IMG/VR virus record: IMGVR_UViG_3300044631_000894
Coordinates: 1 to 20,390 of that record
Direction: 5' to 3' (one strand)
DNA: 20,390 bases
Origin: a virus
Shown piece by piece: positions 7,463 through 17,179 of the stretch. The notes beneath the pieces are model-generated. The model was not told the origin of the DNA and ran no database searches. It worked only from the letters and a program-made list of their open reading frames with translations. Position numbers and translations under genes: made by a program. The stretch's first letter is position 1. Each line of letters begins with the position of its first letter.

Positions 7463-7671
7463 CATTCTACTCCAAACCTAAAGTCGGTTTCTATATTCCA
7501 ATTCTCTAGAAAAAGATAAAAAATGTAACCGTCTAATTGTGGATTTTCTAAACACTCACAATAGATCAAATCTTCATTATCGCAGTGCCAGTATTTTGGT
7601 ATTAGTGTTAGTCCAATGTACTCTGACATTTTTGATTTAGTATATTCATCTACTATTAATTTAGTAGGCAT
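7462..7671 (-). CDS. Small unknown protein ending in FGVE
   Basis: 69 residues from the ATG at 7671 (the adjacent ATG at 7674 is also possible). The N-terminal part (LIVDEYTKSKMSEYIGLTLIPKYW) is unlike the MNERIKEL family, but the protein ends with RFGVE followed by a TGA, the same C-terminal motif as its neighbours. GGAG of the preceding gene's FGVE codons lies seven bases before its ATG. Two Cys (HCDNEDLIYCEC) might bind metal. No family recognised. Confidence 0.6.
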   Translation of the reverse strand: MPTKLIVDEYTKSKMSEYIGLTLIPKYWHCDNEDLIYCECLENPQLDGYIFYLFLENWNIETDFRFGVE

Positions 7672-7937
7672 CATTCAACTCCAAACTTATCAACGATTTC
7701 CCAGTAGACGATCTCCATGCCATAGCCGATATCACGGTCTTTGTCGCTGCCTTGATATCGTAGAGCAATTCGCTCCTTGAGATCGCCTAGGCACTCACGG
7801 ATGATCAGTTCGGCGAACTTGTCTAGTTTTTCTTGACTAACGATAAAGCCGTCTAGGTCTGGATGTTTGGGATCACTAAAACTATGTTGAGTAATCCCAG
7901 ATTGAAATGCCAGTTCATCAATTCGTTCTTTGTTCAT
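7671..7937 (-). CDS. MNERIKEL/FGVE-family protein, copy 1
   Basis: 88 residues from the ATG at 7937. It opens MNKERIDELAFQSGI, has the family block LDKFAELIIREC, and closes IVDKFGVE. Members in this window share three parts: an N-terminal helix MNERIKELxxQAG, a central FAELIVREC helix, and a C-terminal HFGVE. The family appears in other phage genomes without a known role. Here its TTTGGAGTTGAATGATG end carries the Shine-Dalgarno for the next gene. Confidence 0.7.
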   Translation of the reverse strand: MNKERIDELAFQSGITQHSFSDPKHPDLDGFIVSQEKLDKFAELIIRECLGDLKERIALRYQGSDKDRDIGYGMEIVYWEIVDKFGVE

Positions 7938-8143
7938 CATTCAACTCCGAAATGTTCTCGAATCTGTTTGGATGCTGCTCTCAACACCGCACTATCGCCA
8001 CCGTCAACATCACCCAAATCAGTATCGGGTACGATACGGGCACATTCCCGAACAATCAACTCGGCGAGTTTATTAGCACGACTAGCAAGTTCAGGAGCAG
8101 CATATCCTGCTTCTAACATGAGTTCTTTAATTCGTTCGTTCAT
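7937..8143 (-). CDS. MNERIKEL/FGVE-family protein, copy 2
   Basis: 68 residues from the ATG at 8143; a longer in-frame reading to 8203 lies inside the preceding gene and lacks a ribosome site, whereas AAGGG precedes the 8143 start. MNERIKELMLEAGY, LAELIVRECARI and REHFGVE give the family signature. The variable middle (RIVPDTDLGDVDGGDSAVL) differs from the other copies. It ends TGA inside GAATGATG, which provides the next start. Confidence 0.75.
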   Translation of the reverse strand: MNERIKELMLEAGYAAPELASRANKLAELIVRECARIVPDTDLGDVDGGDSAVLRAASKQIREHFGVE

Positions 8144-8144
8144 A

Positions 8145-8387
8145 TTATACCCTTCTATTCCACTTGTCAATACATTCTTGTTTACTATTGCCACTGATTT
8201 CAACGCCGCATCCGCCTGATGTTGTTACACAATGAATGCTGTAACACCATTGTTCTTTTGGCACTACACTATAGTGGTGATATGAATAATACCCGTTATT
8301 TCTAACCTCCCATCCGATACCGTTCGGATATAGGGTATCTGGATCATCTAAATCAACAGCGTGACCACAATATGGGCAAGGTTTCAC
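8145..8387 (-). CDS. Lar-like restriction-alleviation-family zinc protein
   Basis: 80 residues, beginning with GTG at 8387 one base after the upstream stop. The start MKPCPYCGHAV has the CxxC zinc knuckle of Lar-type proteins, a second pair lies in HCVTTSGGCGVEI, and the end SKQECIDKWNRRV matches the WNRR signature of that family. Lar (Rac prophage) relieves type I restriction of unmodified DNA; most phage homologues are unproven. In a phage with an apparent 7-deazaguanine locus it could be a second antirestriction measure. Ribosome site GGAG is nine bases away, in the FGVK codons of the preceding gene. Confidence 0.72.
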   Translation of the reverse strand: MKPCPYCGHAVDLDDPDTLYPNGIGWEVRNNGYYSYHHYSVVPKEQWCYSIHCVTTSGGCGVEISGNSKQECIDKWNRRV

Positions 8388-8388
8388 T

Positions 8389-8649
8389 TCATTTTACTCC
8401 AAAATGTTTTTGTATTGCGTAGATAGGGTGTTGACAATTATATTCAATACCGTCTACAAATATAGCCTTCATACGATAAGTAGCAAGAATATCTATAACT
8501 TCGGTAAGAATTAACTCGGCGAACCGTTCGGCACTACGATCACCACCCCAATATACGGTAGGAGGATTGCCACCACGCATAGGATCATCTAGGGGATATT
8601 CCCGCACCATGTGAGCCTGACGGTATAGTTCCTTAATTCGTTCGTTCAT
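8389..8649 (-). CDS. MNERIKEL/FGVE-family protein, copy 3 (ends FGVK)
   Basis: 86 residues from the ATG at 8649 (the adjacent ATG at 8652 is possible). It starts MNERIKELYRQAH, has SAERFAELILTEV in the middle and ends IQKHFGVK. The middle differs from the other copies (a REYPLDDPMRGG stretch). The cysteine of the usual FAELIVREC helix is missing. Its HFGVK end still holds GGAG for the Lar-like gene that follows. Confidence 0.7.
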   Translation of the reverse strand: MNERIKELYRQAHMVREYPLDDPMRGGNPPTVYWGGDRSAERFAELILTEVIDILATYRMKAIFVDGIEYNCQHPIYAIQKHFGVK

Positions 8650-8792
8650 CATTTGATCTCCAGTGTCTTCTTTAGTTCAATAAGTTCCTTGGCCAGTTTG
8701 TCATAGTCGCTCTTCCGAACAAACTTAATATACTTTGAGGTTCCTACACTGGTCATAGCACGGACCCAAAATGTCCAAGTTTTTGGTTTCAT
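8649..8792 (-). CDS. Unknown basic small protein, 47 residues
   Basis: ATG at 8792, GGAG seven bases upstream within the FGVSE codons of the preceding gene, and TGATG coupling with the next gene support it. The protein starts MKPKTWTFWVRAMTSVGTSK and ends with a lysine-rich helix (KLAKELIELKKTLEIK). The MKPK(T/K)W opening is shared with the 61-residue gene three genes away, which may reflect a relation or chance. Family unknown. Confidence 0.55.
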   Translation of the reverse strand: MKPKTWTFWVRAMTSVGTSKYIKFVRKSDYDKLAKELIELKKTLEIK

Positions 8793-9019
8793 TCCGAAAC
8801 TCCGAATAAAAGTTCTTTGAAATACTTTTGATAATCAACATCCATTCCTTTTGCGTGTTCTGCATGTTTAGCACATTCCCGAACAATAAGTTCGGCGAAC
8901 TTTTTGAGTTCTTCTGTACACGTTATTGCCTCATAGCCATCAAATACGTGAAGATTGTCTCCACCGTCGTCTTCAATAAAACCAGCCTGTAGAGCAAGTT
9001 CCTTAATTCGTTCGTTCAT
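8789..9019 (-). CDS. MNERIKEL/FGVE-family protein, copy 4 (ends FGVSE)
   Basis: 76 residues. MNERIKELALQAGF, LKKFAELIVRECAKH and LLFGVSE give the family signature; the middle is acidic and rich in histidine (HAEHAKG). ATG at 9019 overlaps the preceding stop (ATGA). The end TTCGGAGTTTCGGAATG serves as ribosome site and start for the 47-residue gene. Confidence 0.75.
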   Translation of the reverse strand: MNERIKELALQAGFIEDDGGDNLHVFDGYEAITCTEELKKFAELIVRECAKHAEHAKGMDVDYQKYFKELLFGVSE

Positions 9020-9711: not shown

Positions 9712-9736
9712 TAAGGGATCTTAGATTAAATTTCAA
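9708..9736 (-). promoter_or_regulatory. sigma70-type promoter for the small-gene operon
   Basis: On the minus strand: -35 TTGAAA (9731-9736), 17-base spacer, -10 TATACT (9708-9713). The -35 overlaps the TGA stop of the glycosyltransferase gene. Expected transcription start is near 9701, about 12 bases before the AAGGAG of the 85-residue gene. The TTGAAATTTA and TATACTGTA stretches recur in the promoter at 16,703-16,731, which suggests a common early-phage promoter type using host RNA polymerase. Confidence 0.75.
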
Positions 9737-10809
9737 GCCTTTCCGATGAGCTCCATCATCTTTTCACCACTGAAGAACTGTTGTTGTATTCTTACAACAT
9801 CTTTCCCCCATGCTTCTTTATATGAGGTATAATTATCAACCATATAGATAATAATTTGTGCCAAGGGCTCTAGGTATAATCCTGGATACTCATAAAAGTT
9901 TGCCGACATATCATATAGAAACTCTGTACTATACATTTCCTTATAAGATAGTTTGCTTGGTACTAATGGTAAACAACCCGCTGTCATTGCCTCGAAAGTA
10001 CCAATACCCAGATTTTCGTGCTTATTTGCACTAAAAACAACCTTGCAACTCTTCAGAAACTCGTAATACTCTTCCTTGCTCATATTCATATCTTGTGTTC
10101 GAACAAACTCAATGTCTTTTCGACCAAAGATATCTTGAACATAAGTTTGCAACATAGTAAAGATTTCGGGTGCTTTATCCGAATTGATTCTATGTGGGAA
10201 TACTACAATGTTTTTCTTCTCATTGTTGTTTCGTAAATCAGCGATATACTCTAGAGGATAACCACAAACATAACTCTTTGAATGATACTTGGGATTATTG
10301 AGTTCAAGATTGGTTAGAAACTTATCCTTGTGTTGCTCCGTTGCAAAGAACATCATGTCAAAGGCACTTGCATACGAGCGCTCAAGTTCCTTTACCCAGT
10401 CTTTGTTCTTGATACGCAGAGCCAGAATGTCTGTCGGATCATACGCGCCCGCGTGGAAGATACCAACCAACTTTACATCAATGCCGTTGAGTTCCCTGAT
10501 GTACTTTACTGTATGGACAGTTTGATTCCATGCGTCAGTAAAGAAGAAAACATCTCCGTTACCAACAGCGCCGCTGGAGAACAGCTTAGAGATTTCAACC
10601 GCTTGGCTTGCCTTGTACTCACACGTAGCTGAGAAGTCAAAGAATGCACCCGCAGCAGGTCTATCATACGCAGTTGCGTGTCCACTCACGGGAACAACCC
10701 GAAACTTATCACCAAGAGTCTTTTGTGCCAACTCGGGAATCCAAGTAGCCCATTGCTTGGTGTAACGATTGTCCAGGGGTTCGATATCAACAATAAACAA
10801 ATTTCTCAT
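9733..10809 (-). CDS. GT-B glycosyltransferase, similar in motifs to tRNA-queuosine mannosyltransferase
   Basis: 358 residues. The C-terminal half has the GT4-type donor-binding pattern: FPHRINSDKAPEIF (205-217), SKEEYYEFL (244-252), VVFSANKHENLGIG with E265, TFEAM with E273, then AGCLPLVPSKLSYKEM. From memory, this run (PHR-x-DK-PE-F, the HE-x-x-G line, GCxPLxP, YPE-like) is unusually close to the DUF3524/GTDC1 family that mannosylates queuosine in tRNA, and closer than I would expect of a generic GT4. The N-terminal half (FFFTDAWN, IFHAGAYDPTD, DMMFFATEQHKDKFL) is compatible with the acceptor domain. It is the last gene of a coupled run with dpdA, a QueD-like and a PMI-cupin gene, so a sugar on modified phage DNA is a fair guess. 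It could also modify a protein or 5-hydroxymethylcytosine. Confidence 0.78.
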   Translation of the reverse strand: MRNLFIVDIEPLDNRYTKQWATWIPELAQKTLGDKFRVVPVSGHATAYDRPAAGAFFDFSATCEYKASQAVEISKLFSSGAVGNGDVFFFTDAWNQTVHTVKYIRELNGIDVKLVGIFHAGAYDPTDILALRIKNKDWVKELERSYASAFDMMFFATEQHKDKFLTNLELNNPKYHSKSYVCGYPLEYIADLRNNNEKKNIVVFPHRINSDKAPEIFTMLQTYVQDIFGRKDIEFVRTQDMNMSKEEYYEFLKSCKVVFSANKHENLGIGTFEAMTAGCLPLVPSKLSYKEMYSTEFLYDMSANFYEYPGLYLEPLAQIIIYMVDNYTSYKEAWGKDVVRIQQQFFSGEKMMELIGKA

Positions 10810-11177
10810 GTCTTCCTCGCGTAGTCATCTTCGTGTCGAGTAATGTCGGATTCGGCACATGCCTCGCCCATTTGTAGCTCCACTATAACACAGTGAGTTG
10901 GGCTGGCGCAAGAGACTCTATGTTTTGCTTTGACTGGAATGTTTACAACCTTGCCGGGTGTTGCAAAGAAAACTTCGTTGTCTAGTTCTACTTTTGCAAT
11001 TCCCGCGGCAACAACCCAAACCTCCTTACGCTTATCATGATGCTGCAAGCTAAGTCTTTGATTGGGGTTGATGATCATTGTTTTGATCTTGAACATGTGA
11101 GTGAGTTCATCACCACATGCGTGTGTAGTGAACTCACCCCAAGGGCGCTCCTCGCGCTCGTTCTTGTAGACAATCAT
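10806..11177 (-). CDS. Type II mannose-6-phosphate isomerase-like cupin
   Basis: 123 residues, a single cupin. Motifs: RPWGEFTTH near the N-terminus (ERPWG is typical of the PMI part of ManC/ManA type II), RLSLQHHDKRKEVWVVAAGIAKV with the HHxKRxE metal-binding line, IPVKAKHRVSC with a later metal His, and the C-terminal E-x-DITRHEDDYAR, which matches the IVRFEDDYGR end of PMI domains. It would interconvert fructose-6-phosphate and mannose-6-phosphate; no pyrophosphorylase domain is attached. Overlaps both neighbours by ATGA. The pairing with a glycosyltransferase suggests a sugar-supply role. Confidence 0.82.
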   Translation of the reverse strand: MIVYKNEREERPWGEFTTHACGDELTHMFKIKTMIINPNQRLSLQHHDKRKEVWVVAAGIAKVELDNEVFFATPGKVVNIPVKAKHRVSCASPTHCVIVELQMGEACAESDITRHEDDYARKT

Positions 11178-11542
11178 ACGTCAATAGGAATGTTTTCAAC
11201 AATACCATCAGACTCGCCGTCTTCACTAACCACAACCTCGTAGTAGCGATTGCCATACTTGGGAATTAGATGATGGTTGATAATTTCTCTAGCAATCATT
11301 TCGCAAGACTTGTGGTTCATGTTTCCACCACTGATGAACTCTTGCAATGCCCACTTTACTAGAAAGAACTCAAGCTCTCGGTTGTCGTGTTCAACTTCAA
11401 TCTTCACCTCAACCTTGAACATATGACGATGCACATTTTCAAGGAACCCAATGCGGGTATCAATATCACCTGCGTTGGGGTAGAAATGGTAACCCTCGAA
11501 CTCGGTTCGAACTTTGATGTAACTAGGTTGGCTGGATGTCAT
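11174..11542 (-). CDS. QueD/PTPS-fold protein lacking catalytic residues
   Basis: 122 residues. It aligns by eye with the 6-pyruvoyl-tetrahydropterin synthase fold: EFEGYHFYPNA with H19, NVHRHMFKVEVKIEV with H38 and H40 (the three zinc His of QueD), SCEMIAREI, and YYEVVVSEDGES with E107. The catalytic Cys four residues before the HxH is Leu here, and no Asp-His pair is seen in the middle, where a LEFFLVKWAL segment stands. So a normal QueD reaction is unlikely, and a new task on a 7-deazaguanine is more probable. A CDG decarboxylase called DpdL has been proposed in phages; I cannot tell whether this gene belongs to it. Coupled to dpdA (TAATG). Confidence 0.65.
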   Translation of the reverse strand: MTSSQPSYIKVRTEFEGYHFYPNAGDIDTRIGFLENVHRHMFKVEVKIEVEHDNRELEFFLVKWALQEFISGGNMNHKSCEMIAREIINHHLIPKYGNRYYEVVVSEDGESDGIVENIPIDV

Positions 11543-12771
11543 TAGAAAAACTCCTCAAGTGTTGCTGGTTGACCGGCGGCGATTCGATTAGACTTCACGT
11601 ATCGCCCAACCTCGCCTTTCCAGTAATTATACGAGTCAATGTCTTTTACATCAACCAAGTTTCTAATAGGAAGTAGATTCTTATCTGAAGACACGAACTT
11701 GTCAAATGCCTTAGGATTCTCGAGCAAGGAATCAATGTACTTGCAGAAATTTAGAACACTTCCAATGATAGTTGCAAGTCTCACGGCATAGAACAATTCT
11801 ACATCACCGCCGACTTCAATGTACTTCGTCTTTCCTGTGTTTAGAATTTTGAAGAACTCGTCTTGTGGTATGTCAATGTTCGTGATTTTAGACGACTCAC
11901 GATGCATCAGTTCATACACCGAATTGTAGCTACGGCTGAACGACAACATAGAACGCTCGCCAAAGTAGTTACCCAACTCTACACCAGATGAATGTGTCGT
12001 GGAGTCGTAACTAACAGACACACCGTCGTACATTCCATTCTTGATGAACATAATGTAGGGTAGAAGTCGCTTGGCAGCACCCACACCCAGAATGTGCAAA
12101 TGACTCTTCTCTAGTGGTAGTTGCGTAAAGAAGAACGCACGCTCAATGTCTTCCAACGAACCTGTGCCAAGTGCGGCACCACCCATAGCAACACCACCAA
12201 TGTGCTTGTGCTTGCTCTGGGGAATCTCCTTGAGAATGTACTCAGTCCACTTCATGTACGTGTCGTAGCAGTTTCCTTGTGCAATGAGAATGGGCTTGCA
12301 CGTTGACTTCTCTTCTAGAAACACATCAATCTGTCTGTGAATGTTCTTTCCAGTTTCCCGAGCCATGGCTTCCAGATTCACGGGATCAAAGAAACGATTT
12401 GTAGTGTCGTTTCTTCCCGAAGTTAGACCGGTTGTCTTGATTGGAATCTCATCAAAGCACATTCCAAGATCAGCATGGCTTGCCTGATTGCGATAGATCT
12501 TATCTTTAATCTCTGCCGTTGCTGTTAGACCCTGTGTAATGATCTGCAACCCACCCGAGTCAGCATGAATGCTATCAACGTTGAATTTCTTTAGGTTATT
12601 ACCAAAGCCGGGCTCAGTGAACGCATTGTACAAAAGACCAAACTTATGGTTTGTCTCCTTTGCTACTCGTCCAAAGATATCATCTGCCAAGGAAACGATG
12701 TTTGGTCGGTCCATAGCTGCATGAACTCTTGTATAAGAGGTGCCGCTTAGAATATATTCTAGTCGTTTCAT
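11542..12771 (-). CDS. dpdA: DpdA-type DNA guanine transglycosylase (TGT-like)
   Basis: 409 residues from the ATG at 12771 (the TTG one codon before is rejected). TGT-like barrel: HADSGGLQI with D71 (the DSGG motif, the general acid position in TGT), GMCFDEIP, VAMGGAALGTG for the base-recognition glycine loop, HILGVGAAKRLLPYI, and VSVSYDSTTHSSG with D256 as the likely nucleophile. The Cys-rich zinc site of tRNA TGTs is not seen, in keeping with phage DpdA proteins. Expected activity: exchange of guanine in DNA for a 7-deazaguanine. No ribosome site; the preceding 42 bases are A/T-rich. FolE, QueD and QueE upstream give the precursor. Which DpdA subfamily is uncertain. Confidence 0.82.
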   Translation of the reverse strand: MKRLEYILSGTSYTRVHAAMDRPNIVSLADDIFGRVAKETNHKFGLLYNAFTEPGFGNNLKKFNVDSIHADSGGLQIITQGLTATAEIKDKIYRNQASHADLGMCFDEIPIKTTGLTSGRNDTTNRFFDPVNLEAMARETGKNIHRQIDVFLEEKSTCKPILIAQGNCYDTYMKWTEYILKEIPQSKHKHIGGVAMGGAALGTGSLEDIERAFFFTQLPLEKSHLHILGVGAAKRLLPYIMFIKNGMYDGVSVSYDSTTHSSGVELGNYFGERSMLSFSRSYNSVYELMHRESSKITNIDIPQDEFFKILNTGKTKYIEVGGDVELFYAVRLATIIGSVLNFCKYIDSLLENPKAFDKFVSSDKNLLPIRNLVDVKDIDSYNYWKGEVGRYVKSNRIAAGQPATLEEFF

Positions 12772-12813: not shown

Positions 12814-13518
12814 CTAGTACACACCCTTACCACCCGAAGATTGTTGTAGCTTAACATTATCAAAGAATTCTTTCTTTGTACTAGGATCAGTCTTAAAAGA
12901 ACCACGTAATATGGTTGTTTGCGTTAAAGAGCTAGTTGCCATTATACCTCTATTAGTGCAACAACCATGTTCAGCACCTATATGAACTGCAACATCCTTT
13001 GCTCCGGTTGCTAATTGAATTTCCTTTGCAATGTCATTGGCTAGTTCTTCTTGTAGTGTTCCTCTACGGGCACACCACTGAGCAATGCGAGTGTACTTAG
13101 AAAGCCCAATAAGTTTCTCGGCAGCGATAATCCCAATATAAGCGACACCGTTGACAGGCTGATGATGGTGAGAACACATGCTACGAAGCTCGCTTCTAAC
13201 CACCAACATACCTTCGTAACGATCTTCTGAATCATTTGGGAAAGCGGTTGCATCTGGTCGTTCATCATACCTACCTGCCATAATTTCGTTGAAATACATC
13301 TTGGCAAGTCTACGTGCTGTACCTTTACTGTTAGGATCATTTTCACGATCAATCAACAAACGATCCAGAACAAGCTCAAATGCCTCTGATGCCTCATTGA
13401 TTAGATGTTCTTTGTCAGAGTCAGCAACGTATTCGCTAATGTTGTCACCAGCCCAGAAACGCTTACCATCTTGTTTCATCCTAGAGCGAATAGCATCCGC
13501 CAAATATTTTTCACTCAT
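12814..13518 (-). CDS. folE: GTP cyclohydrolase I
   Basis: 234 residues. FolE motifs: TARRLAKMYFNEI, MCSHHHQPVNGVAYIGI with C115, H117/H118 (zinc region, normally CEHHLLP), KLIGLSKYTRIAQWCARR, LQEELANDIAKEI and HGCCTNRGI with C186/C187 as the last zinc Cys and then RG. The zinc site is complete. The family makes 7,8-dihydroneopterin triphosphate from GTP, the first step to 7-deazaguanine and folate. In phages with queD and queE it usually feeds DNA modification. ATG overlaps the 152-residue gene by 8 bases. Confidence 0.9.
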   Translation of the reverse strand: MSEKYLADAIRSRMKQDGKRFWAGDNISEYVADSDKEHLINEASEAFELVLDRLLIDRENDPNSKGTARRLAKMYFNEIMAGRYDERPDATAFPNDSEDRYEGMLVVRSELRSMCSHHHQPVNGVAYIGIIAAEKLIGLSKYTRIAQWCARRGTLQEELANDIAKEIQLATGAKDVAVHIGAEHGCCTNRGIMATSSLTQTTILRGSFKTDPSTKKEFFDNVKLQQSSGGKGVY

Positions 13519-13969
13519 TATTTTTCCTATTCTTAATTCTTTCGTATTGTTGTTCGTTGTATGCTTGTATCGCTTCTACAAGCTCTTGCTTTTCAACTGA
13601 ATCATTCCAAGCCTCCAACTTTTCATAGAATTGAATTCTGTACTTGTCAGTATCTAGCGAATATCCAAACTTTTCAATAGAATTATACAGTTTGGCAATG
13701 CGAAAGTCAAGGTCTTCTATTAGAGCAGGTGGAGCTTTTATTCTCAACAAAGTTTCTTTTTGATCTAACAACCTATTGAGGCGAGTCATAAGATCATCAC
13801 GCGTCTCTGTAGGAAGTTGTTTGAATTCTTCCCCCATAAAAGAGACTCTGTTTTCTTCTAACAACGATTCTCCGCGTTCTTGAAGACTGCCATAGAGACG
13901 TTCGTCTAAAAGGTAAAGTTCATAATCGGGTGAATTATGACCAACACCCAAATGCACTATAGGTCTCAT
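13511..13969 (-). CDS. Unknown helical protein inside the 7-deazaguanine operon
   Basis: 152 residues, between queD and folE. Start at 13969 has AAGGA five bases upstream. It opens RPIVHLGVGHNSPDYE and then is long helices with Leu/Glu/Lys repeats (DDLMTRLNRLLDQKETLLRI, ELVEAIQAYNEQQYERIK), so a coiled-coil or helical bundle. No family recognised. Position suggests involvement with the modification or just passenger status. Confidence 0.7.
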   Translation of the reverse strand: MRPIVHLGVGHNSPDYELYLLDERLYGSLQERGESLLEENRVSFMGEEFKQLPTETRDDLMTRLNRLLDQKETLLRIKAPPALIEDLDFRIAKLYNSIEKFGYSLDTDKYRIQFYEKLEAWNDSVEKQELVEAIQAYNEQQYERIKNRKNNE

Positions 13970-13977
13970 AACATTCC

Positions 13978-14469
13978 TTATTCAGCAAAAAGATCTTCGC
14001 CCCACTCACGATGACCTTCTCGGTATGCCATATTGGATTGTGTCTCTCGAACCTCTACACGGAAGCACCAAAGACGCTCTGCCTCGCTCTCTCCCCAATA
14101 GTCGGGAATAAACACACCGTTGACAAATTTGTAGAGTTGATCCGCAAGCCCCTCACAACCCAGCTTAGGCAAGATGGTTAGTTTTGCCAACTTTCTTGAT
14201 TGAAGCTCTTTATATAGCTCTAGTTCAGGATCATCTTGTGCCACTAGCAAAGTATGGTCGAATTGATCCTGTAGAATCTCTTTCAGTTCTTTCAAGCCGC
14301 CATAGTCGGCAACCCAATTACGAACATCAAGATTATTTGTTCCAAAGAAAAACTTCATGGAAAAACTGTATCCATGAATCATGTTGCAATGCGAGTCAGC
14401 GCGCCATTGCCTATATGCACAGGGAAATGCGTCAATGTATTCCTTTGTGCTCACGTATTTGTAGTTCAT
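13978..14469 (-). CDS. queD: QueD-like 6-carboxytetrahydropterin synthase
   Basis: 163 residues. QueD fold pattern: FPCAYRQWRADSHCNMIHGYSF with catalytic Cys C28 four before H32, DYGGLKELKEILQDQFDHTLLV with D71-H72, CEGLADQLYKFVN, VRETQSNMAYRE with E142. Compared with E. coli QueD, the first zinc His (FxxxH) is Tyr (FPCAYR) and the HGH pair is HGY; H27 and H32 remain. This variant appears in other phages as I recall. Product would be 6-carboxytetrahydropterin for QueE. Overlaps the small membrane-protein gene by ATGA. Confidence 0.82.
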   Translation of the reverse strand: MNYKYVSTKEYIDAFPCAYRQWRADSHCNMIHGYSFSMKFFFGTNNLDVRNWVADYGGLKELKEILQDQFDHTLLVAQDDPELELYKELQSRKLAKLTILPKLGCEGLADQLYKFVNGVFIPDYWGESEAERLWCFRVEVRETQSNMAYREGHREWGEDLFAE

Positions 14470-14945: not shown

Positions 14946-15797
14946 TTATGTTCCCCATGCGTTCTTAAAGAGCGGAATTTGAAGTCTATCACTGTAGCGT
15001 AGACCATTTTGCATTGCCAGTTCAGCAACTTTGCGATTGTTCAGCGCATAGACAGATTCAACGCCACCAACAGGCATAAGATAAGCAGGACCCCTAAAAC
15101 CATGATATCGATAAACGTCAATGGTTTCGAGAGCTTCACCCACATCTTCATCAGTCGCAACGACAAATTTGAGATAAGTGTAACCAACAGATTCATAACC
15201 AACAACTACCTCGGGTTTGATTGCATCAGTTCGTGTCTCACCACTGCAACTCAACTTGGCACTAACGCTAAAGGTCACAGCATTGTAACCTCTATGTTCG
15301 ATGCCCCAATTGAATAAGTAATCCCTAAACTTGGGATCCAGGGGTTGTGTGCCGTTAGTCTCAAAGGTAAGTTCCTTTAGATAGCGCATCTTGGGATGAT
15401 CAAGAAGATCCGGATAACTACGCTGCCAACCCAACAAGGGCTCGCCTCCGGTGATTACCAGGTGTTCATCTCGCCACTCTTTGTACGGGAGCATGTTAGC
15501 GATACTTTCCGCAATGCTATCCGTCGTAAGAACTGGTGAAAGGTCCTTGAACCTAGGATCCCAGCTAGCATAAGAATCGCAACCGGTACTAACAAGAGGT
15601 AGATCTCGATATTGCTTATACTTTTCAATGCTACTTGCAACAAGGTGTCGCTCATTCGATTTTTCTCCTCGAGCCATTCCAAAACCATCACAAGTAAAAT
15701 TACAGCCAAATGTTCTTAAGAAGATGCTTGGGACACCCATAAAACGCCCTTCTCCCTGGATGCTGTAGAATAATTCTGATACTTTCAATTTTGCCAT
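14946..15797 (-). CDS. queE: 7-carboxy-7-deazaguanine synthase (radical SAM QueE)
   Basis: 283 residues. Starts KVSELFYSIQGEGRFMGVPSIFLRTFGC, the QueE N-terminus. Fe-S cysteines: C32 and C36 in GCNFTC, then the third is most likely C73 in TGCDSYASWD, about 36 residues further than in the usual CNFxCxxCDT. The rest has LVITGGEPLL (SAM-binding GGEP), ELTFETNGT and KLSCSG. It converts CPH4 (from QueD) to CDG. First gene after a strong promoter at 15,825-15,853. The Cys spacing is a known variant in some phage QueE proteins as I recall, not a defect. Confidence 0.9.
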   Translation of the reverse strand: MAKLKVSELFYSIQGEGRFMGVPSIFLRTFGCNFTCDGFGMARGEKSNERHLVASSIEKYKQYRDLPLVSTGCDSYASWDPRFKDLSPVLTTDSIAESIANMLPYKEWRDEHLVITGGEPLLGWQRSYPDLLDHPKMRYLKELTFETNGTQPLDPKFRDYLFNWGIEHRGYNAVTFSVSAKLSCSGETRTDAIKPEVVVGYESVGYTYLKFVVATDEDVGEALETIDVYRYHGFRGPAYLMPVGGVESVYALNNRKVAELAMQNGLRYSDRLQIPLFKNAWGT

Positions 15798-16702: not shown

Positions 16703-16731
16703 AGTATACACTAACCGGGAATAAATTTCAA
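16703..16731 (-). promoter_or_regulatory. sigma70-type promoter upstream of the 64-residue gene
   Basis: Minus strand: -35 TTGAAA (16726-16731), 17-base spacer, -10 TATACT (16703-16708), followed by GTAAGTGCAG. It shares TTGAAATTTA and TATACTGTA with the promoter at 9,708-9,736. The -35 again overlaps the stop codon of the gene before. A degenerate palindrome (TACTGTA ag TGCAGAC) covers the -10 and start. Confidence 0.75.
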
Positions 16732-16970
16732 TTCTGGTCAACACCAAAATGATATTTCACTCTTTCGACACAATGGTCCCGCATAGATTTTAGAATCTGA
16801 TCACGGTAATCTCCATAACCAAGTGGTGTATCATCAATAATCTTGACACATTCTCGAATCAATAACTCACCAAACTCTCGCCATTCAAAGTCTCCGATGT
16901 ACTCGCGATCAGAGCCGTGTTCTTTCTTGAGTCCGGCTTTTTTAGCTAGTTCTAGGATTCGTTCGTTCAT
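16728..16970 (-). CDS. MNERIKEL/FGVE-family protein, copy 5 (ends FGVDQN)
   Basis: 80 residues from the ATG at 16970 (a GTG two codons earlier is rejected). Starts MNERILELAKKAGL, has FGELLIRECVKI, ends VKYHFGVDQN. Compared with the other four copies it lies 7.7 kb away, has an added DQN, and its FGV codons read GGTGTT, not GGAGTT, so no ribosome site is formed. Correspondingly no gene starts right after it; a promoter does instead. Confidence 0.72.
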   Translation of the reverse strand: MNERILELAKKAGLKKEHGSDREYIGDFEWREFGELLIRECVKIIDDTPLGYGDYRDQILKSMRDHCVERVKYHFGVDQN

Positions 16971-16972
16971 AA

Positions 16973-17179
16973 TCACCAGTTTTCTGTATCCGCGATTACA
17001 AACTGAATTGTAGCAATGCGACTATGGATTTCCGCTATATACTCCATTGTTGTGGTGTATCCGATGCCACTATCATTGTCTTGAATCAAAAGAAATGCTT
17101 TTTCTCCAAGTCCATTCTCTTTAACGATCTCAAGAATCTTCTCAAGATCCGTTTTTGTTATGTAGAGTTTTTGTTTCAT
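16973..17179 (-). CDS. Unknown small protein, conserved phage type
   Basis: 68 residues. ATG 17179, AGGAG five bases upstream. Sequence MKQKLYITKTDLEKILEIVKENGL then FLLIQDNDSGIGYTTTMEY, ending FVIADTENW. The LIQD..SGIGYTT run looks like a phage family I have seen in several myoviruses, with no known role. Two bases separate its stop from the start of copy 5 of the MNERIKEL family. Confidence 0.7.
   Translation of the reverse strand: MKQKLYITKTDLEKILEIVKENGLGEKAFLLIQDNDSGIGYTTTMEYIAEIHSRIATIQFVIADTENW

Follow-up and report, generated by a model that had tools for sequence, protein, structure and literature searches.

The stretch of DNA considered in this work, hereafter called the window, is a 20.4-kb phage fragment from IMG/VR (record IMGVR_UViG_3300044631_000894, positions 1 to 20,390), whose minus strand encodes, in the order of transcription, QueE, QueD, a 152-residue protein, FolE, DpdA, a small PTPS-like protein, a cupin and a glycosyltransferase of 358 residues (GT, in the following dpd-GT). 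It is likely a DNA hypermodification cluster, in which dpd-GT would glycosylate a 7-deazaguanine that DpdA has put into DNA. The genes for QueE (14946-15797; 7-carboxy-7-deazaguanine (CDG) synthase, a radical SAM enzyme; phrog_2076, QueE-like, E 1e-51), canonical QueD (13978-14469; the pathway 6-carboxytetrahydropterin synthase; phrog_2389, QueD-like, E 7e-36, and TIGR03367, 1.1e-8) and FolE (12814-13518; GTP cyclohydrolase I; PF01227, E 4.7e-40) are situated directly upstream of a cassette consisting of the last four genes. The 152-residue protein (13511-13969) bears no family label and is encoded between QueD and FolE. Coordinates and sequence agree with an earlier note on this DNA, according to which the four cassette genes are joined by TAATG, ATGA and ATGA; we locate these joints at 11544-11540 (DpdA/PTPS-like), 11177-11174 (PTPS-like/cupin) and 10809-10806 (cupin/GT). 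Overlaps of a few bases are frequent in phage operons and provide weak evidence alone; it is the conservation across phages that carries weight. Family searches and predicted structures likewise bear out the identities proposed in that note for the four products, namely DpdA, a PTPS-fold protein, a type II mannose-6-phosphate isomerase (PMI) cupin and a GT-B enzyme.

The AlphaFold2 model of dpd-GT (9733-10809) exhibits a GT-B fold (predicted local distance difference test (pLDDT) 92.8) and aligns with BshA, MshA and SPS over 304-320 residues, with Z scores of 24-26 and root mean square deviations of 2.9-3.3. Judged by this model, the protein is a retaining GT4-type GT-B enzyme. Residues E264-x7-E272, R206 and K211, that is the E-x7-E motif and the basic donor-phosphate residues, are invariant in 68 relatives. 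Apart from a weak match to Glycos_transf_1 (1.7e-4), searches of Pfam, PHROGs and NCBIfam with the GT alone returned no useful family, and a sequence search of the PDB with either the single protein or its profile found no relative. When the model was used for a fold search of the PDB, generic GT-B enzymes dominated and none of the 50 matches listed was named QTMAN.

Affiliation of the GT with the QTMAN (GTDC1/DUF3524) family, as suggested in the earlier note, holds for one half of the protein. Fifteen gammaproteobacterial QTMAN homologues served as the comparison set and 34 GT4 enzymes as controls. An hhalign comparison of the GT family with QTMAN yielded Prob 99.2 (E 6e-20) for residues 148-323, whereas a mixed GT4 profile reached Prob 22. 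Taken singly, all QTMAN sequences scored 50-108 and all 34 controls 12-27. A hidden Markov model (HMM) for QTMAN recognized the window GT with E 6e-19, compared with 0.018 for the GT4 HMM and 1.5e-8 for the best of the GT4 controls searched with the QTMAN HMM. The same HMM matched 94 of 96 members of the GT family below 1e-3 and no other open reading frame (ORF) in 93 loci. In a tree of donor domains the dpd-GT sequences form one clade (support 100/100), which joins QTMAN apart from GT4 (97/85), with an alternative grouping not being rejected (p-AU 0.375). The C-terminal donor domain thus appears by sequence to be specifically related to that of QTMAN. The part of the assignment that did not stand concerns the other half: the QTMAN_N domain (PF12038) is matched by none of the 68 members examined at E≤1 and it is for this reason that we regard the GT as a sister family rather than as QTMAN. 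Both enzymes are tied to 7-deazaguanine in nucleic acid and share a homologous sugar-donor domain, but the N-terminal domain of dpd-GT is unrelated by profile, and its proposed acceptor is DNA while that of QTMAN is tRNA-Q. The activity that defines QTMAN is the transfer of alpha-mannose from GDP-mannose to the queuosine of tRNA-Asp. A distinct acceptor domain is as expected if the acceptor has changed.

DpdA (11542-12771; phrog_10773, E 2.6e-95) belongs to the phage DpdA2-like group of DNA guanine transglycosylases and matches the TIGR00430 Tgt family weakly in the NCBIfam search (0.002). It is 30-32% identical to its homologues from KVP40, Moby, pf16 and ACP17 and closest to that from BUCT-ZZ01 (49% identity). 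The D71-S-G-G motif and D256 are invariant across 19 divergent DpdAs, and we take the two aspartates to correspond to the catalytic pair of TGT. The best reading is that the window protein is predicted to exchange guanine for a 7-deazaguanine in DNA. DpdAs accompanying the GT are as little as 12-20% identical to that of the window and it follows that the GT tracks the function of DpdA and not one lineage.

Homologues of dpd-GT were detected in at least 590 IMG/VR stretches by an alignment-based scan, from which the 80 closest to the query alignment were kept; co-occurrence with DpdA may be lower among more distant members than in these kept loci. Identities of 28-40% connect the window GT with homologues in phages of very different hosts, namely Phosso (Sinorhizobium), ACP17 (Acidovorax), Paride/PA5oct (Pseudomonas) and X1 (Xanthomonas). 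Linkage was assessed with iterated HMMs in 38 non-redundant loci or genomes in which the GT has flanks of 5 kb or more on each side. DpdA is present in the same record in all 38 cases and inside the locus in 35; in Phosso, PhiXhv-12 and L083 the DpdA gene lies outside the locus, at another place in the genome. PTPS-like proteins accompany the GT in 37 of these loci, QueE in 35 and FolE in 33. In the Synechococcus phage BUCT-ZZ01, the PTPS-like gene and a divergent GT family member follow directly downstream of DpdA. In cellular genome assemblies, DpdA adjoins the GT in 23 of 25 loci, the remaining two residing on short contigs. Unlike in a polysaccharide cluster, the GT4 HMM found no second GT4-like gene in the loci. 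The GT is therefore not found to be kin to unrelated capsule or lipopolysaccharide (LPS) enzymes, nor is the cassette unconserved, the two outcomes accessible to sequence analysis that the earlier note had named as speaking against its proposal.

A number of observations on these loci may be added. In the mostly alphaproteobacterial loci L111-L129 (Sulfitobacter, Shimia, Devosia, Magnetospirillum and others) the GT is paired with DpdA, in several cases with no FolE or QueE nearby, and some of the pairs are followed by proteins of 538-585 residues lacking a Pfam or PADLOC match; these loci may represent prophages, islands or host systems. PADLOC gave no match for the window and the bacterial loci, and the known Dpd defence island is accordingly not indicated there. 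A xanthine/guanine-type phosphoribosyltransferase is encoded near the cassette in 50 of 72 GT loci (e.g. L046:9999-10484).

The PTPS-like protein (11174-11542) was recognized by Pfam PTPS (0.0018) and by its predicted structure. Its AlphaFold2 model (pLDDT 92) is a T-fold, with QueD as the best structural match, also near PTPS (Z 11.5, 2.4 Å, 107 residues). Since the window contains a canonical QueD, the small protein is not the pathway enzyme but an additional, divergent PTPS paralogue; with 13.4 bits it stays far below the cut-off of 89 for the QueD equivalog TIGR03367. H19, H38 and H40, S79-C80-E81 and E107-D108 are invariant in 61 relatives. The histidines look like the zinc triad and E107 like the ring-anchoring glutamate, and S79-C80-E81 is a signature peculiar to this family. 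PTPS-like family members also occur in seven phages without the GT, Cellulophaga phiST among them; a search with the DpdA alignment reached no DpdA in six GT-less phages of this kind. In the GT-less loci L099-L104 (Cellulophaga phiST, Vibrio Bakedbeans and D479, Aeromonas Ahp1, Rhizobium RHph_I1_18 and Chryseobacterium MA9V-3), FolE adjoins the PTPS-like gene, often together with QueE, and some also contain a MazG-like or nucleotide kinase gene.

QueC (PF06508) was not found above the family cut-off in any of 50 GT-bearing records including the window. Since fragments are frequent among the virus records, most weight is carried by the five isolate genomes among the 50 (ACP17, Paride, Phosso, X1 and BUCT-ZZ01), of which X1 has one sub-threshold PF06508 match. 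On the other hand, KVP40, Moby and pf16, the three DpdA phages without the GT that were tested, all possess QueC. QueC acts on CDG (PMC13329287), and in GT phages lacking it CDG must either be the substrate of another protein or enter the DNA unchanged. The base is therefore probably derived from CDG and not preQ0 or preQ1, as far as gene content allows this to be read. The PTPS-like protein probably acts on CDG, taking the place of QueC, and the simplest guess is that it would be a CDG decarboxylase giving 7-deazaguanine. A CDG decarboxylase termed DpdL is reportedly part of the work of Cui from 2023; like the PTPS-like protein, it would have CDG as its substrate in phages without QueC, a likeness that serves as a lead only.

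The cupin (10806-11177) matches PF01050 (MannoseP_isomer) over nearly the whole profile (E 4.2e-21; 75.7 bits, gathering threshold 23.6), the C-terminal part of TIGR01479 (4.4e-21) and, in the PDB, the 113-residue mannose-6-phosphate isomerase 7zvm (E 0.005). It thus agrees over its whole length with the C-terminal cupin of type II PMI (GMP-PMI) and differs in being a stand-alone, single-domain protein of 123 residues that is optional in the cassette. In the window lineage it probably supplies mannose-6-phosphate for GDP-mannose. QTMAN adds alpha-mannose and acts on tRNA (PMC12518689), and the queuosine (Q) mannosyltransferase from rat liver accepted GDP-mannose (PMC4425180). That mannose is the sugar in the window phage is a tentative guess, with slightly less than an even chance, and is meant for this phage only. 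PMI cupins, which in some relatives are fused to an RfaE-II-like nucleotidyltransferase, occur in only about 12 of 72 GT loci when counted with a cupin-only HMM (a broader cupin HMM, with 39 matches, took in RfaE-II-like nucleotidyltransferases). Mannose is therefore not a general conclusion; of the arrangement that the earlier note proposed to survey, the pairing of GT and DpdA was constant in the GT loci and the cupin was not. Other neighbours of the GT include GalE-like epimerases (22 of 72), UDP-glucose-dehydrogenase-like proteins (11 of 72), RfaE-II-like nucleotidyltransferases and oxidoreductase pairs, and the sugar may differ from phage to phage.

Two phages deserve separate mention. 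In Xanthomonas phage PhiXhv-12 (L005, 5663-8897), which also encodes DpdA and a QueD-like gene, a distant GT member is flanked by an annotated glutamine-fructose-6-phosphate aminotransferase and an N-acetylglucosaminyl deacetylase, neighbours that would fit transfer of N-acetylglucosamine followed by deacetylation. In BUCT-ZZ01, another, different GT4-like gene (L095, 7659-9002) resides immediately upstream of dpdA, besides the GT found downstream; the presence of two GT genes suggests two sugars in that phage.

Taken together, we consider it likely that the cassette serves to glycosylate a 7-deazaguanine residing in DNA by virtue of DpdA. FolE, QueD and QueE would produce CDG, which the PTPS-like protein would convert without QueC, most simply by decarboxylation to 7-deazaguanine. 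DpdA would exchange guanine in phage DNA for the converted base. A hexose would be attached by dpd-GT once this base is in place or, in another order, while it is still free; in the window phage the hexose would probably come from GDP-mannose, which the PMI cupin would help to provide. Restriction enzymes and similar nucleases would then be kept off the DNA by the bulk of the sugar. Direct support comes from the gene identities established by profile and fold, the conserved linkage, the lack of QueC and the kinship of the donor domain with QTMAN; the nature of base and sugar, the atom at which they are joined, the sequence of the steps and the protection of the DNA are what we infer.

Several points weigh against this scheme. 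The N-terminal half of dpd-GT has no detectable similarity to QTMAN (Prob 0.6), the QueD profile gives but a weak match to the PTPS-like protein, FolE and QueE are not local in some bacterial loci, and a PTPS-like match was found nowhere in five alphaproteobacterial genomes. From phage to phage, different sugar-supply genes stand beside the GT (GalE-like, UDP-glucose dehydrogenase, RfaE-II-like nucleotidyltransferase, PMI), some of which may be members of surface-sugar clusters. With regard to chemistry, a CDG-derived base offers no obvious hydroxyl for glycosylation: plain 7-deazaguanine lacks a hydroxyl or amine side chain, making C-glycosylation or some other handle necessary, and a sugar ester on a retained carboxyl would be labile. 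One speculative solution, to which we assign a rather low probability, is that the PTPS-like protein decarboxylates CDG, DpdA inserts bare 7-deazaguanine and the GT links the sugar to carbon 7, resulting in a C-glycosylated guanine analogue in DNA. Such a carbon-carbon link would resist hydrolysis and ordinary glycosidases. Alternatives are a carboxyl ester or another handle stemming from a gene without family label.

The kinship of the donor domain with QTMAN, a tRNA enzyme (PMC12518689), bears the possibility that the cassette modifies RNA, with tRNA as the target either of the GT, as a mannosyltransferase of the queuosine type, or of the DpdA homologue. This is quite improbable, as the other half of QTMAN is missing from the GT, a Q precursor is not phage-made without QueC and the window DpdA groups with Vibrio KVP40-type homologues, a group of which the nt-1 DpdA2 has been described for DNA (PMC6884629). 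Glycosylation before insertion would leave DNA as the target, with DpdA inserting a base that the GT has already modified in free or nucleotide form. DpdA and TGT are known to tolerate substituted 7-deazaguanines and the data do not set the order of the steps, but a hexosyl base would be a large substrate for the DpdA pocket and the Q mannosyltransferase works after insertion into nucleic acid (PMC4425180), such that we rate this order as improbable.

Equally improbable is an acceptor other than deazaguanine, e.g. a hydroxymethyl pyrimidine, with the GT merely co-localised with deazaguanine genes. Known phage DNA glycosyltransferases do use hydroxymethylated pyrimidines, and 5 of 12 GT records encode a PF00303 member, perhaps no more than an ordinary thymidylate synthase. 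The essentially complete linkage of GT and DpdA speaks against it, as do the complete genomes of ACP17, X1 and BUCT-ZZ01, none of which encodes a PF00303 enzyme and in which such an acceptor is hence unlikely. The least probable proposition, with a very small chance in our estimation, is that the GT serves a host-surface (LPS or capsule) or superinfection-exclusion sugar pathway and is found near dpdA by chance. Sugar-nucleotide genes do occur near the GT, and cyanophage polysaccharide clusters contain cupin isomerases, nucleotidyltransferases and GTs (PMC7824862). However, the GT4 HMM reveals no GT4-type companions in the loci, DpdA is constant and PTPS-like, FolE and QueE are usual across widely different phages and bacteria, and the donor domain is QTMAN-specific.

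Elsewhere in the window, the segment 19200-20390 has a GC content of 56% as opposed to about 42% in the remainder and contains two similar short ORFs (MxxTALxLAD); it may be an insertion or an assembly joint. Five small ORFs (7671-9019 and 16728-16976) with the common N-terminal motif M(N)xERIxEL apparently form a repeated gene family.

Deazaguanine modification of phage DNA by DpdA reportedly also is the subject of the study of Cui mentioned above. The literature searched contains no description of a glycosylated 7-deazaguanine in phage DNA, in accordance with the earlier note, which knew of no described system of this sort; Cui 2023 was outside the scope of this search and a prior mention there is possible. 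One survey reports a deazaguanine system in PA5oct and, in the passages found, ties no GT to it. Going by these sources, we found no prior description of what would be sugar-coated deazaguanine DNA. The window cluster has FolE, QueD, QueE and a DpdA2-type transglycosylase in common with described DpdA phage systems (Hutinet 2019, PMC6884629) but differs by the lack of QueC, amidotransferase or QueF and by the additional PTPS-like protein and GT. With the T-even DNA glucosyltransferases, which act on 5-hydroxymethylcytosine, it would share the principle of guarding phage DNA from restriction by glycosylating one of its bases, whereas the base, the enzyme family and the route to the acceptor all differ.

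If our reading is correct, phages would possess a second, unrelated route to sugar-coated DNA, acting on a purine analogue instead of a pyrimidine. This route would be widespread, extending from the IMG/VR stretches through cultured jumbo phages such as Paride and PA5oct to bacterial and archaeal genome assemblies, and would account for the occurrence of deazaguanine genes without QueC in GT phages. Two so far unannotated families, one of GTs and one of T-fold proteins, would furthermore gain a function, and new members would be added to the DNA-glycosylating enzymes.

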